From a virus: a DNA stretch of 64,000 bases. The notes below the pieces were generated by a model. The model was not told the DNA's origin. It worked only from the letters and a program-made list of their open reading frames with translations, and ran no database searches. The translations under genes were made by a program, and so were the position numbers. Position 1 is the first letter of the stretch; every line of letters begins with the position of its first letter. Shown here piece after piece: positions 38,992-44,209 of this stretch. The stretch spans positions 1-64,000 of the IMG/VR virus record IMGVR_UViG_3300033142_000925; one strand, 5' to 3'.

Positions 38992-41063
38992 TAGTTACCC
39001 ACCGTCGGAATGACCATTTCGCCATCCGTAAATACGATACCAGCTTCACTCAATGCGGTCACAAGTTCCCGGATCGCTGTTGAAAGTTCACCCTCAGTAG
39101 TTGTCTGCCGGTTATAGAACTGCATAAGGATCGGATCGATTACATCTGTAATTTCACCTTTCTCTCTGATCTTACCCCCGATATCAAACAATCCAAGCCC
39201 CTCAACCGCTTCCTTCTTAGCCTGTCCACGGACCGCAGAGAGAATATCATTAAACAAACTACTAAACCCTCCAACACCTCCGCCGAATGATTGAAAGTCA
39301 CCCTCTTTTAATGATCGCCACGCCCCCATCCATCCGGGAGTAGCATCTGATATTTCATTGATCTGCCCCTGAAGACCTTCATTCTCCCGAAGTGACCGTA
39401 TGGTCGACGCGTTGGTTGCAAAGTTAGGATTTTGAAGCCAAGGGTCAACCGCATTCATATCTTTAATAGTCAAATTGGCTTCATCAATCTCAGCAGTAAG
39501 ATTACTAACATCCTGCGCAGTTATCGTATTCACTTCTTCAATGGTCTGATTTATTTGACCTTGAGCCGCTTCCATAAGGTCCCGGCGCACTCCACCAAAC
39601 TGAACATTGGTCGCATTGGTGTTGATCGGGTTTCCTGTGATCCATGCCGCCACACCCCCGAGCATTGTAGTCAATTCAAGGGCTGCATCCTGAACACCCT
39701 TGAGAGCTTCAATCTGTCTGGCTGCTGTCACTTCCCGAGCCTGATCATAATCAACAAGATTTCCATCGTCATCGTAAATCTTTCCTCTGACTCCGGCGGT
39801 AGCAACCCCTTTACCCGCTGCCGTGGAATATTCTCTACCCGATGATTGGATGAACGCATCAACCATGCTCATGCTGGTCCCGGCTCCCATATACTTCTGG
39901 ACCCTCATTCTCATAAGGTCCTCATCCCCGCCCGTCGACCGCTGAAGGTACTGAAATACAGCTTCATTGGTTTCGGTAGGATTCTGTTCCATCCGCATCA
40001 TAGTATCGGTCACACTCTCACCCGATTTTCTCATAGCCTGAAATGCTATGATGTCTTCCGGTGTTTGAAGCTGTGCCGCGCTCTGGGCTCTATTTGTTGC
40101 CAACTGATTCAAGGCCACTGCGCCGGTTGGTGACAGTCCGCCAAATTGGGCATATCCCGCCAATACGTTGCCTCGTTGATTCACCTCATCCTGAGACAGC
40201 TTGATCCCGCTGGTCATCGCGCCTTCGATGGTTCTGTTCATTTCTGTGAGGAAGGTTCCGAGACTTCCCCGGCCAAACGTTCCCGCGCCCCCGGCCAAGG
40301 TCCCGTATTCCATATTGACCCCGGCCCGCTGTGTAGTACCGAGAAGCTGTCCAAGCAAGCCAGCGTCAACACCTGCCCCTGTCATTACATCAGCAAACAG
40401 GCCAAACTGCCCCGCTGTGCCCTTCGTAAACTGGGCACCCGAAGTGCTGGCCGATGTCATGAGCGCATTTACCATACCAATAGGCACACCCGTACGTCCG
40501 AGTTCAGTCATATAATTCTGAGTGTTTTCGTACGATGCTCCAAGTCGCTGGGAGATCCCCCCACCGAAGACGTTTTCCATACGTCCATATGAACTTTCTG
40601 CGAACTTCTGTACTCCCATGGCCCCTGCTCCGAGTGCCATGAGTGCGATTCCTATAGGACCGCCGACGAGACCGCCAGCCATGTTCGCGAGGCCACCGGC
40701 TGCGGCACCTCCACGACCTGCGCCTGCGGCCTCAGCAGTAGAGAAAGCGCCACCGACCGCACCGGGCCGGATGGCGTTATTGTATCCACTATTCGAGGAT
40801 TGTCTCTGTCTGGATTGTTCCTGATAATCCCGGTTCCGGGTTTCACGTGCGGCTACATCTGCATTCGACTGACCACCCGCCATGACTCCTGAGTTCGGAG
40901 ATACAGCCTTCGAGAAGGGGTCACCTCCACCAATAGCACCGGGTGACAACCCCTTTGCGGAGGCTGCCACCTGATCATAGGCTTCTTTGAGCTTTCGTAT
41001 TTCTCGTGCCGCTTGGTCTGCGCCTTGCGCCTCGACCTTAATCCGGCTGACTATATCCGGCAT
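38991..41063 (-). CDS. tail tape measure protein
   Basis: 690 residues. The start is a helical segment (IKVEAQGADQAAREIRKLKEAYDQVAASAKGL), then a low-complexity Gly/Ala-rich hydrophobic region (GAGRGGAAAGGLANMAGGLVGGPIGIALMALGAGAMG, residues 115-155), then long helical stretches. These are the features of tape measure proteins, which set tail length and travel down the tube during injection. Its length would correspond to a rather short tail. It lies behind the chaperone genes and before the hub, the standard order. Confidence 0.85.
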   Translation of the reverse strand: MPDIVSRIKVEAQGADQAAREIRKLKEAYDQVAASAKGLSPGAIGGGDPFSKAVSPNSGVMAGGQSNADVAARETRNRDYQEQSRQRQSSNSGYNNAIRPGAVGGAFSTAEAAGAGRGGAAAGGLANMAGGLVGGPIGIALMALGAGAMGVQKFAESSYGRMENVFGGGISQRLGASYENTQNYMTELGRTGVPIGMVNALMTSASTSGAQFTKGTAGQFGLFADVMTGAGVDAGLLGQLLGTTQRAGVNMEYGTLAGGAGTFGRGSLGTFLTEMNRTIEGAMTSGIKLSQDEVNQRGNVLAGYAQFGGLSPTGAVALNQLATNRAQSAAQLQTPEDIIAFQAMRKSGESVTDTMMRMEQNPTETNEAVFQYLQRSTGGDEDLMRMRVQKYMGAGTSMSMVDAFIQSSGREYSTAAGKGVATAGVRGKIYDDDGNLVDYDQAREVTAARQIEALKGVQDAALELTTMLGGVAAWITGNPINTNATNVQFGGVRRDLMEAAQGQINQTIEEVNTITAQDVSNLTAEIDEANLTIKDMNAVDPWLQNPNFATNASTIRSLRENEGLQGQINEISDATPGWMGAWRSLKEGDFQSFGGGVGGFSSLFNDILSAVRGQAKKEAVEGLGLFDIGGKIREKGEITDVIDPILMQFYNRQTTTEGELSTAIRELVTALSEAGIVFTDGEMVIPTVGN

Positions 41064-41292
41064 TTGCCAACTGCTCCTTCATCCGTTCAATCTGTTCCGG
41101 CGTATACCCCGCTCTCGCGAAGTTCTTCTCCGCCGTCTCGTCGATCACCGGATCACCCGCTTTCCTGTCATGGAAGCGCTTTATCTGTTCCGACGATGGC
41201 AGTTCAGTCCAGCCATAGAACATCAAAACCTTCTGGTTTTCAGTTAGCTTCTTGAACCTCTCATCCGTCGGCAGTATTCGAAAATGATGCAT
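41038..41292 (-). CDS. tail assembly chaperone, downstream frame
   Basis: 84 residues from the ATG. The segment HHFRILPTDERFKKLTENQK is typical of the second half of tail chaperones in contractile phages. No convincing ribosome site precedes the ATG. The same frame stays open upstream to 41400 and reads sensibly there (ADWKTLARDESLDLWIM leading into the ATG). This suggests it is made as an extension of the first chaperone by a +1 or -2 ribosomal frameshift in 41303-41400. Overlaps the tape measure gene by 26 bases. Confidence 0.75.
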   Translation of the reverse strand: MHHFRILPTDERFKKLTENQKVLMFYGWTELPSSEQIKRFHDRKAGDPVIDETAEKNFARAGYTPEQIERMKEQLANAGYSQPD

Positions 41293-41302
41293 GATCCATA
41301 GG

Positions 41303-41692
41303 TCAAGACTTTCGTCCCTTGCTAAGGTCTTCCAGTCCGCCCGATTTAAGTTTTGATTGAAACTCGCCGCGAAACCGCAAATAGGATGTGTACAGTTCCC
41401 CTATGCACGCCTCATCATAACACGTCCAAGCGGATTTAAACCACTCAGGCGACTCCTCACGGATGACGAGGTTATCCGCGTAGGCTGTAGCTTCGACAAG
41501 CGCGAGGTGATCCGCTGGGTAAGTATCCCGTGCAAATCCTCCGAGCTTCCTTGAGATGTCTGCTTCTATTCCTGCTTTTTCAAACGGGCTTGGGTACTTC
41601 ATTGTGAAGACCTCGCCGTTATACTCGACCGTGAACTTCAGATCATCTTCATGAATAATCTGTTGTCCGATTCTGATATCTTTCTTCGCCAT
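41303..41692 (-). CDS. tail assembly chaperone, first frame
   Basis: 129 residues from the ATG at 41692, which has AGAGGAG 5 bases upstream; a TTG six codons earlier is less likely. Helical protein (FEKAGIEADISRKLGGF, EWFKSAWTCYDEACIGELY). Position between tail tube and tape measure is that of gpG/gp-E type chaperones that coat the tape measure protein during tail assembly. The last 98 bases overlap an open second frame that continues as the downstream chaperone. Confidence 0.78.
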   Translation of the reverse strand: MAKKDIRIGQQIIHEDDLKFTVEYNGEVFTMKYPSPFEKAGIEADISRKLGGFARDTYPADHLALVEATAYADNLVIREESPEWFKSAWTCYDEACIGELYTSYLRFRGEFQSKLKSGGLEDLSKGRKS

Positions 41693-41761: not shown

Positions 41762-42469
41762 TTAGATCGTTCGCTCTACACTCATCATCCGCAGATTCGC
41801 GGTTATGTAACTGTTGGGCGTGATCTGAACCCCATTACTCGCAATCATAACCTTTCGGAACTGATTTACGAGTTGACCGGTTGCGGTGTTCAGGAATTGC
41901 AGTGTATCGAACTCACCCGGTTTCCCGTCATTCGACTGCACCTGACTCCGTGTCGGTATAAACTCAGCCAAGGCGACCGCGCCGCCATCTGGCCATGGAC
42001 CCTCGCCCGGTCTCTCCGGGAGAAAGGTTGATAGTGTAACAGTACACGAGTATCCCTGCGAATCATAGTCAACAGGACCATGATAGTTCAGGACGTTGGC
42101 TGGATTAACCAATTTTGTTATCCTAAAGGCTTTTTATCCCTTAGTTCTACACCTTCATTTCAGTGTAGTTCAGCATATCTTTTCAACTCAATGAGTTGGT
42201 GCGGCCTCGTGGAAGGATTATATTCTGCCTTAGCAGGTTCACCTTCTATGCGTTGCCCCTGACCAGCCGTTTAAAGCATAGCCTTCGGTTCGGATTCCCA
42301 TCTCAGGGTTCCCGCTTCATTCCGCACTTTCTTACCCCTATATCGCTACAGGGGAGGCCGTCAATCCAGCCCAATCCTCGTCGTAGGAAGCCCCGGTCGC
42401 GAGACCTACAGGCTGTCCGTTAATAAGAACTTGTACCCATGCACCACCAGCAAGTATTTTCTGCGCCAT
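41762..42469 (-). CDS. tail tube protein, split by a group I intron
   Basis: Two exons: 42469-42368 (34 codons, MAQKILAGGAWVQVLINGQ... to ASYDEDWA) and 42109-41762 (115 codons plus stop, VNPANVLNYHGPVDYDSQG...). Spliced length is 149 residues, normal for contractile tail tubes, and the junction DWA-VNPAN is smooth and in phase 0. Unspliced, exon 1 runs into TAG after nine extra codons. The ATG at 42469 follows AGGAGG. The protein polymerises inside the sheath encoded just upstream. Joining is inferred from sequence and from the intron fold; not proven by RNA data. Confidence 0.88.
42110..42367 (-). ncRNA. group I intron (IA-like) in the tail tube gene
   Basis: 258 nt without an ORF. P1 pairs exon end GGGCU with GGCCU, giving the required U-G at the splice site. 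P10 pairs intron AUUGAC with exon 2 GUUAAU, six pairs. P3 is GUGCGG/CCGCAC (42327-42322, 42204-42199), P4 CGGG/UCCG, P5 CCC/GGG with AA and AAU joiners. P7 is UCAGGGGCA with UGCUGA (42262-42254, 42175-42170), P8 CAACUC/GAGUUG, J8/7 AAAAGAUA, P9 CUACAC/GUGUAG. Extra stems (GAAGG/CCUUC and an inner CUGC/GCAG) between P7 and P3 indicate subgroup IA. The last base is G, as expected. Confidence 0.9.
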
Positions 42470-42478
42470 GCGATCCTC

Positions 42479-44209
42479 CTATACGCTCGCCACGAGTTCG
42501 TGGAAGTGGTTCGTTATGAAATTGAAATTGACTGGCAGTGTCACGTACGCATCGTAATCGATGAATACCTGATCAGCGTTCAATGTGATCTGTACACCCC
42601 ACCATGAGAGCCCGTCAGCCGGGTTCTTGATGAAGATGCCAAGGTCCTGATAGATTGCCAGTCTCGCTTCTACCGCCCCTTTCAAAACACCGCCCGTGAC
42701 TGCCGTTCCCGGCTGCCCAACAAACTGCAATTCCAGTGATTCTCTCAGGTCCCGTGATGCAAAGAACATCTCGGTTACTACTGAGAACTCATTCCACTTC
42801 AGATCGTTTGTCTGGTAAGTGTTAAACTGTCGCACCAGTCGAGGCCGACCAGTCGGTGCGTAGTTGATCGCGGCAACACCTTCCTGTAACAGAGCTTCAA
42901 GGTTGCTGTCAGTTAGCTTGTATTCAAGCTCTATGAAGTCCAATTCCTTGAAGGTGAGAGGTTGGTTGATTGCCAAGGTACATTTCATACCCATCAGCAT
43001 ACAGGCCGCATACGACCCGGAATAATTCTGGATTACTCCATTCACATCCCTTCGAGTACCACCATTGAAGGCGTATAACCCGGCCTTGCTGTTAAGCGTC
43101 TGTGCTGCCGTAACCGCCGCTGCGATATCGGTTGCCAAGACTCCCGTCTTCCACGGAGCCCCTACAAGGAACTGCCGTTCTTTCCGTCCGGTCACTGCGC
43201 TCATTGCCTCACAATGGGTTTTGATAGGCGCGTGTACCGCCGCCAGCGGGTCAGGTGTCGAGATGAACTGCACATTCTCCGCTTCCATCTGCAACAAGGC
43301 CGCTGTCCACTGGGTCGTATCATAGTCACCCTCAACCGCTCCAACAAGGAACTCTGCGACACTGTTGTCCACGATTTCTACATTGGTTGCGAGGTTTCCC
43401 GCCGCCGCTGATACTCTCGCAGACTGCGCGTTGATAACATCAAGCATCGCGTACATTGAAGATTCTGCTTCAACGGCTGCGGCGTTGATGTCCGCTGCGG
43501 TTACTCCGTCCAGTTCCAGTGGGCTATCATTCTCACTGCCCGCAATCGCAAAACAGGTATAGCCAGTCTGGGCGTTGATGTACGTCGCCAATTCGCCGAT
43601 AGTGCCATAATCATTCAAGTCGATACTCAGTGGATTCGTGACATCTGTATCGAGTGTTTGTGCTGCACTGGTATTCACGATGGTCATACTGGACGCGCCG
43701 CCCGTATTCTCAATCGAAAAACTCTTCTTCCAGATGTTGTCAAACTCCTCAACCGGATCGCTCTGAAACTCTATGGTGACTTTTTTACCGAACGTGTCGG
43801 TACTGGTCGCCACAGTCACTTTAATCTGATTCGTATAGAGACCGTAATCCCTACTGGCCAGATTGATCTTTGTGACTGCCGACGCAACCAAGGCGAGCGC
43901 TGCCTGTGTTGCGGCGTTTACACGCATCGCGAAGATGCGCTGGGGGCTTAGTCCTCCCCCCGGACTGAATGCAAGTCGAACAGCCTCCATCAAAGGTCCG
44001 CCACGAAGAGCGTCCACTGCTTCGGCGATGGTATTGAACTGTAGAAGGGTAGCGGGCTGACCCCCCGTACATTGGCCCATAACCACGCCATTGTTAGCAG
44101 AGGCAAGCCCCGCAGCACCTTTCACCGAGTCGATACGTGAGTATGCTCCCGGTATGATGTGCGAACTGATCTGACCAGCACTTTGGAATGTGCGATAATT
44201 CAGACTCAT
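42479..44209 (-). CDS. contractile tail sheath protein
   Basis: 576 residues. The N-terminal stretch with PGAYSRIDSVKGAAGLASANNGVVMGQCTGGQP, the middle helix-strand domain, and the C-terminal part (LRESLELQFVGQPGT, EARLAIYQDLGIFIKNPADG, VFIDYDAYVTLPVNFNFI) match phage sheath proteins, which contract to drive the tube through the envelope. This gene shows that the virion is a myovirus. It directly precedes the tail tube gene, with GGAGGG before its start. Confidence 0.9.
   Translation of the reverse strand: MSLNYRTFQSAGQISSHIIPGAYSRIDSVKGAAGLASANNGVVMGQCTGGQPATLLQFNTIAEAVDALRGGPLMEAVRLAFSPGGGLSPQRIFAMRVNAATQAALALVASAVTKINLASRDYGLYTNQIKVTVATSTDTFGKKVTIEFQSDPVEEFDNIWKKSFSIENTGGASSMTIVNTSAAQTLDTDVTNPLSIDLNDYGTIGELATYINAQTGYTCFAIAGSENDSPLELDGVTAADINAAAVEAESSMYAMLDVINAQSARVSAAAGNLATNVEIVDNSVAEFLVGAVEGDYDTTQWTAALLQMEAENVQFISTPDPLAAVHAPIKTHCEAMSAVTGRKERQFLVGAPWKTGVLATDIAAAVTAAQTLNSKAGLYAFNGGTRRDVNGVIQNYSGSYAACMLMGMKCTLAINQPLTFKELDFIELEYKLTDSNLEALLQEGVAAINYAPTGRPRLVRQFNTYQTNDLKWNEFSVVTEMFFASRDLRESLELQFVGQPGTAVTGGVLKGAVEARLAIYQDLGIFIKNPADGLSWWGVQITLNADQVFIDYDAYVTLPVNFNFITNHFHELVASV

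Follow-up and report, generated by a model that had tools for sequence, protein, structure and literature searches.

Positions 1 to 64,000 of the IMG/VR virus record IMGVR_UViG_3300033142_000925 (this 64,000-nucleotide stretch is referred to below as the window) contain a gene next to the tail sheath gene that appears to be broken. The gene opens with an ATG at 42469, preceded by TAGGAGGATCGC, and after codon 34 the frame continues for only nine further codons (GLTASPVAI) before reaching the TAG at 42340-42338. The remainder, taken on its own, is called as an ORF from a TTG at 42112, which has no Shine-Dalgarno sequence. This raises the question of whether the locus encodes two proteins, a defective gene, or one gene interrupted by an intron. 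A first-pass annotation had proposed an unannotated group I intron of 258 bases, the early stop being avoided only by its removal, and had anticipated that gene callers would report only the part of the gene that starts at the TTG; both the stop and the TTG-initiated ORF are present as described. The features of the locus are collected in Table 1.

Table 1. Features of the interrupted tail tube gene, its intron and the adjacent genes (window positions).
Feature	Position	Strand	Details and basis
Tail sheath gene	42479..44209	-	directly upstream of the tube gene; phrog_279, E 3.5e-59
Exon 1, tail tube gene	42368..42469	-	codons 1-34; sequence, and homologs uninterrupted at the junction
P1	42355..42372	-	exon GGGCU 42372-42368 with IGS GGCCU 42359-42355; 5 pairs, U-G wobble at the 5' splice site
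Group I intron	42110..42367	-	258 nt, ORF-less, last base G (omega-G) at 42110; comparative ends, R1, covariation
P10 5' strand	42360..42367	-	GGAUUGAC pairs with exon 2 GUUAAUCC (42109-42102)
P2 hairpin	42335..42354	-	3' strand contains the in-frame TAG 42340-42338
P3 5' strand	42322..42327	-	GUGCGG, partner CCGCAC 42204-42199
P4 (CGGG/UCCG), J4/5 and J5/4 (AA/AA), P5 (CCC/GGG)	42291..42314	-	covariation
P6 and P6a	42252..42289	-	covariation
P7 5' strand	42247..42251	-	GCAUA, partner UAUGC 42177-42173; guanosine-binding helix
P7.1 (GAAGG/CCUUC) around hairpin P7.1a (CUGC/GCAG)	42212..42246	-	group IA extra stem
P8	42184..42198	-	covariation; A-U to G-C compensation in L004
J8/7 (AAAAGA) and P7 3' strand (UAUGC)	42173..42183	-	P7 variants
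P9 and P9.1 hairpins	42123..42168	-	covariation
Exon 2, tail tube gene	41762..42109	-	codons 35-149 and stop; homolog alignments
Tail assembly chaperone gene	41303..41692	-	directly downstream of the tube gene; phrog_1038, E 3.5e-5

Relatives of the locus were gathered by scanning viral contigs with exon 2, giving 14 loci. Eleven of these (L002, L003, L005-L013; the L007 and L008 translations are identical) encode the tube protein without interruption. Translation after taking out 42367-42110 gives the expected 149-residue protein, to which ten intronless relatives align at 70-95% identity, collinear across DEDWA-VNPANV; more distant intronless relatives (46-71% identity) are likewise collinear with it. 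Relatives encoding the two pieces as separate proteins, which would speak against an intron, were looked for, and the relatives encode one continuous protein. Because the intronless homologs run continuously through the exact junction, the ends of the intron are fixed, and they coincide with the coordinates of the first-pass annotation. The predicted ligated exon junction reads GATTGGGCT-GTTAATCCA, and the residues of the joined protein around it read DEDWAVNPANVL.

The intron has a patchy distribution. A search with the exon-intron boundary motif matched only the L001 and L004 contigs: L001 carries an identical 705-nt gene with the insertion at the same site, and may stem from the same population of viruses as the window; in L004, the insertion is 257 nt long and sits at precisely the same base. 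The interrupted stretch is the most conserved of the protein, the invariant ASYDEDW (ASYDEDW-AV). Homing introns usually sit in such most conserved stretches.

The joined protein gave a single PHROG match, to phrog_985 (residues 7-63, spanning the junction; weak, E 0.0037), a family that also holds the tube proteins of phage K-type (2.8e-75) and Twort (2.8e-63). Its predicted fold has modest confidence (pLDDT 61), and the best PDB fold matches of this model were phage 812 neck and neck-tail entries (prob 0.98-0.99), with no match at E<=0.001 in the fold search. The proposed comparison with tail tube families gave this weak phrog_985 match across the junction; Pfam and PDB sequence searches with the tube protein gave no usable result, and comparing profiles against the Herelle tube proteins yielded a signal too weak to be used. 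By sequence alone, assignment of the product as a Herelle-type tail tube protein is weak, and the link was supplied by phrog_985 and the fold search. The gene lies between the sheath and tail assembly chaperone genes, and the order sheath, tube, chaperone, tape measure is consistent with the assignment. The chaperone gene is the first of a pair (41038-41692, minus strand; phrog_1038 then phrog_25000/1316) ahead of the tape measure gene, which looks like the programmed-frameshift pair of other tailed phages. With regard to the host, no relative was found in bacterial genomes or among named phages, and no tRNA was found in the window.

The insert RNA folds into the expected parts of a group I intron. 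At its ends are P1 with the U-G pair foreseen at the 5' splice site, an internal guide sequence, P10 and omega-G. P10 is longer than the six pairs first claimed: 8 of 8 positions pair, one of them G-U, and full pairing of two random 8-mers from the window occurs at a frequency of 0.00026. Six P10 pairs are kept in L004 (GGAUUG/YAAUCC), with the G-U changed to G-C. The core comprises the P3-P7 pseudoknot, P4-P6 and P8. P7.1 and P7.1a lie between P7 and the 3' strand of P3, in keeping with the subgroup IA assignment made on the extra stems in this region. One element needed correction, J8/7, which had been given as AAAAGAUA and is AAAAGA, P7 being GCAUA/UAUGC. The P5 loop is short (6 nt), without an ORF. 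The in-frame stop within P2 also occurs in L004, and would hold ribosomes off the catalytic core. An IStron was considered and dropped, as the insert has no ORF and hence no transposase or TnpB.

A search of viral contigs with a P7-J8/7 pattern gave at least 119 stretches, and 33 cores of related introns were aligned for covariation analysis, with P7 fixed by the search pattern. Changes on both sides were present in 40 of 44 pairs, resolving P3, P4, P5, P6, P6a, P7.1, P8, P9 and P9.1. The covariation score was 0.80, compared with 0.21 in shuffles and <=0.16 for slid structures. All 6 pairs of P3 covary (95.9% of cells paired), and P7.1 shows compensatory changes (97.5% of cells paired). Because the pattern had fixed P7, this helix was checked on model matches with other P7 sequences, and pairing was kept in the natural variants GACUA/UAGUC, GCGUA/UACGC, GAGUA/UACUC and GCGCA/UGCGC. 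Where the window and L004 introns differ in P2, P7.1a, P8, P9 and P9.1, the changes are also mostly compensatory. Single-sequence folding was moderately informative, the isolated intron RNA being more stable than shuffles (z -3.3); the comparative support is far stronger. The helices read from one sequence in the first-pass annotation (P3, P4, P5, P7, P8 and P9) are thereby upheld, and on comparative evidence 42110-42367 is confirmed as a group I intron that separates codon 34 of the tail tube gene from codon 35.

The proposed check with the Rfam group I model turned out otherwise. RF00028 gave no match to the window intron, either at the gathering threshold or at E<=10, and recovered none of the 28 clade members tested (the window intron, 20 pattern-positive introns, six named-phage relatives and the L004 intron). 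It did detect other group I introns within some of those same loci and, as a positive control, the three introns of Twort orf142 (63.6-100.9 bits; I2 and I3 scored 97.4 and 100.9 bits). A covariance model of the intron clade, R1, was made from alignment A2. R1 scored the window intron at 213 bits (this sequence is included in its training set), recovered two of the three Twort introns (orf142-I2, 55.6 bits, E 1.2e-16; orf142-I3, 52.9 bits, E 7.9e-16), and matched further RF00028-positive introns in L048 (E 1.3e-8) and L034 (E 6e-6). No R1 match was obtained in the intronless relatives L002, L003 and L005-L013. Because RF00028 also misses the other clade members, and R1 bridges to RF00028-positive introns, we judge its silence to be a gap in the model, not counter-evidence; by these model matches, the clade is related by descent to accepted group I introns, and falls outside what RF00028 can detect. 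The P7 sequence alone was rejected as the cause of the miss, as RF00028 also fails on the intron at L066 6850-7053, whose P7 is GACUA/UAGUC. Such a gap is not a new idea, since under-representation of phage introns in RF00028 and GISSD has been published (PMC11878797); RF00028 is also discussed in PMC6125680, and newer subtype models find thousands of introns in gut phages (PMC12363816). In the Twort nrdE region (L143 16475-20105), the annotation divides the ribonucleotide reductase gene into pieces separated by an HNH ORF, yet RF00028 at gathering likewise gave no match, a further sign of low model sensitivity.

We then considered how the intron came to be shared. Identity between the window and L004 introns is 91.4%, compared with 68.6% for exon 1, 77.7% for exon 2 and 65.2% for the end of the sheath gene. 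In a tree of the spliced genes, the window joins the intronless L002 (support 96/95), not L004, and the intron-bearing phages are not sisters. Since the intron is 91% alike against 69-78% for the exons, and its carriers are not sisters, it probably moved horizontally between phages, although some of its high identity could reflect ribozyme constraint, not transfer. The alternative is vertical descent with multiple losses under strong RNA constraint, a reading that touches the route of spread and not the identity of the intron. Such descent would suit the conservation of catalytic cores, the fact that no more than two lineages with the intron are known, and the lack of any homing endonuclease match in the record. 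Against this, the non-core loops are near-identical as well, the intron is far more alike than the exons and sheath, its bearers are not sisters, and clade introns elsewhere diverge freely (mean column identity 54%); we regard vertical descent as unlikely, while still giving it some weight. The R1 scan of the 80,783-base record, which is possibly incomplete, found only the tube-gene intron, and a search of the 80.8-kb record for HNH, HNH_3 and GIY-YIG endonucleases gave no match, from which we infer that homing, if any, relied on an endonuclease provided in trans or on one that has since disappeared.

Taken as a whole, we consider it very likely (probability about 0.96) that this insert of 258 nt in the tail tube gene of an uncultured contractile-tailed phage is a self-splicing intron of group IA, with splicing as a prediction. 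A decayed or splicing-deficient intron, leaving a truncated tube protein or requiring a helper, would sit well with the failure of RF00028 to recognize the insert, but the core helices, U-G wobble, P10 and omega-G are all intact, the stem differences from L004 are mostly compensatory, both flanking exons are intact and in frame, and the position of the gene, flanked by those for sheath and chaperone, calls for a tube protein; we find this reading very improbable. That the locus makes two proteins, an N-terminal peptide of 43 residues and a protein of 116 residues started at the TTG at 42112 that gene callers would report, is scarcely credible given that this TTG lacks a preceding Shine-Dalgarno sequence and is the conserved 3' end of the intron with its omega-G, and that at least ten relatives encode a single continuous protein.

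For the self-splicing intron, we propose the following course. The intron would fold within the late tail transcript and bind exogenous guanosine in P7, and the RNA would be cut after the U of GGGCU, at the P1 U-G wobble. P10 would then align the 3' exon, and codon 34 would be joined to codon 35 to give the 149-residue tube protein, presumably by protein-free catalysis. Ribosomes translating before splicing would halt at the TAG in P2, staying off the catalytic core. The intron was probably inherited vertically and also spread by horizontal homing into the ASYDEDW-AV stretch, with an endonuclease from elsewhere.

The closest known system is Staphylococcus phage Twort, whose orf142 is the tail tube gene (PMC11878797) and lies directly after the sheath gene. 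Its three introns I1-I3 (AF132670, NC_007021) are annotated in AF132670 as small, ORF-less group I introns, like the window intron. The first-pass annotation had set the window intron apart from those of Twort as small, ORF-less and in the tube gene; this contrast does not hold, as the three Twort introns share the gene, the size class and the lack of an ORF. R1 aligns to I2 and I3 through P3-P9.1. The differences lie elsewhere: the Twort introns are inserted late in the gene (exon 1 extends to about residue 115), whereas the window intron follows residue 34; P7 reads GACUA/UAGUC in Twort I2, as against GCAUA/UAUGC in the window intron; RF00028 detects all three Twort introns and misses the window intron; and the phage group and intron clade also differ. 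Another candidate for orf142 in Twort, a "major tail protein" at 72.2 kb, was rejected as the wrong gene, the tube gene being ORF106 after the sheath.

Introns of the same clade as the window intron occur in Yersinia phage phiR1-37 (gyrase A), crAssphage cr128_1 and bajarodcaudo virus 1 (major capsid), and Exiguobacterium phage vB_EauM-23 (terminase region), with nucleotide similarity at 1e-12 to 1e-17 and R1 scores of 91-154 bits. Their host genes are other than the tube gene, and the capsid and terminase-region introns have adjacent annotated homing endonuclease genes, whereas none was found for the window intron. Group I introns are widespread in essential genes of Bastillevirinae, crAss-like and Jug phages, and for some of them splicing has been shown in vitro, during infection of cells or in metatranscriptome data (PMC11878797, PMC7886860, PMC12363816). 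Those of Bastillevirinae lie in polymerase, terminase and nucleotide-metabolism genes, as opposed to the tube gene. The window intron is thus a real new case of an already known kind of phage intron.

The 3' exons of the clade introns (L023-L102) have matches in topoisomerase II, terminase, major head, DnaB helicase, RIIA, portal, Sak4 and tape-measure families. Of 74, 14-15 hit the unnamed families phrog_26582 and phrog_24618; these may represent either a frequently targeted gene or an ORF associated with the intron. Several group I introns of both the R1 and RF00028 types lie a few kilobases apart in L027, L061, L078, L048 and L087, and some of these probably split one gene several times. 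A broader proposal, which we put forward tentatively and consider possible though doubtful, is that the clade is a large phage group IA clade, undescribed as a subgroup and invisible to RF00028 (at least 119 IMG/VR stretches match one exact P7 motif), whose ORF-less members spread at a fixed site using endonucleases in trans.

For this phage, the finding recovers the true N-terminus of the tail tube gene, otherwise shortened by annotation. It also sets beside Twort another phage group whose tube gene has been invaded, independently and at a different site. More widely, RF00028 does not see a common clade of phage group I introns whose members interrupt genes for topoisomerase, terminase, capsid, helicase, RIIA and tape-measure proteins. 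Numerous phage genes now listed as fragments may be whole once spliced, and R1 would find such introns.
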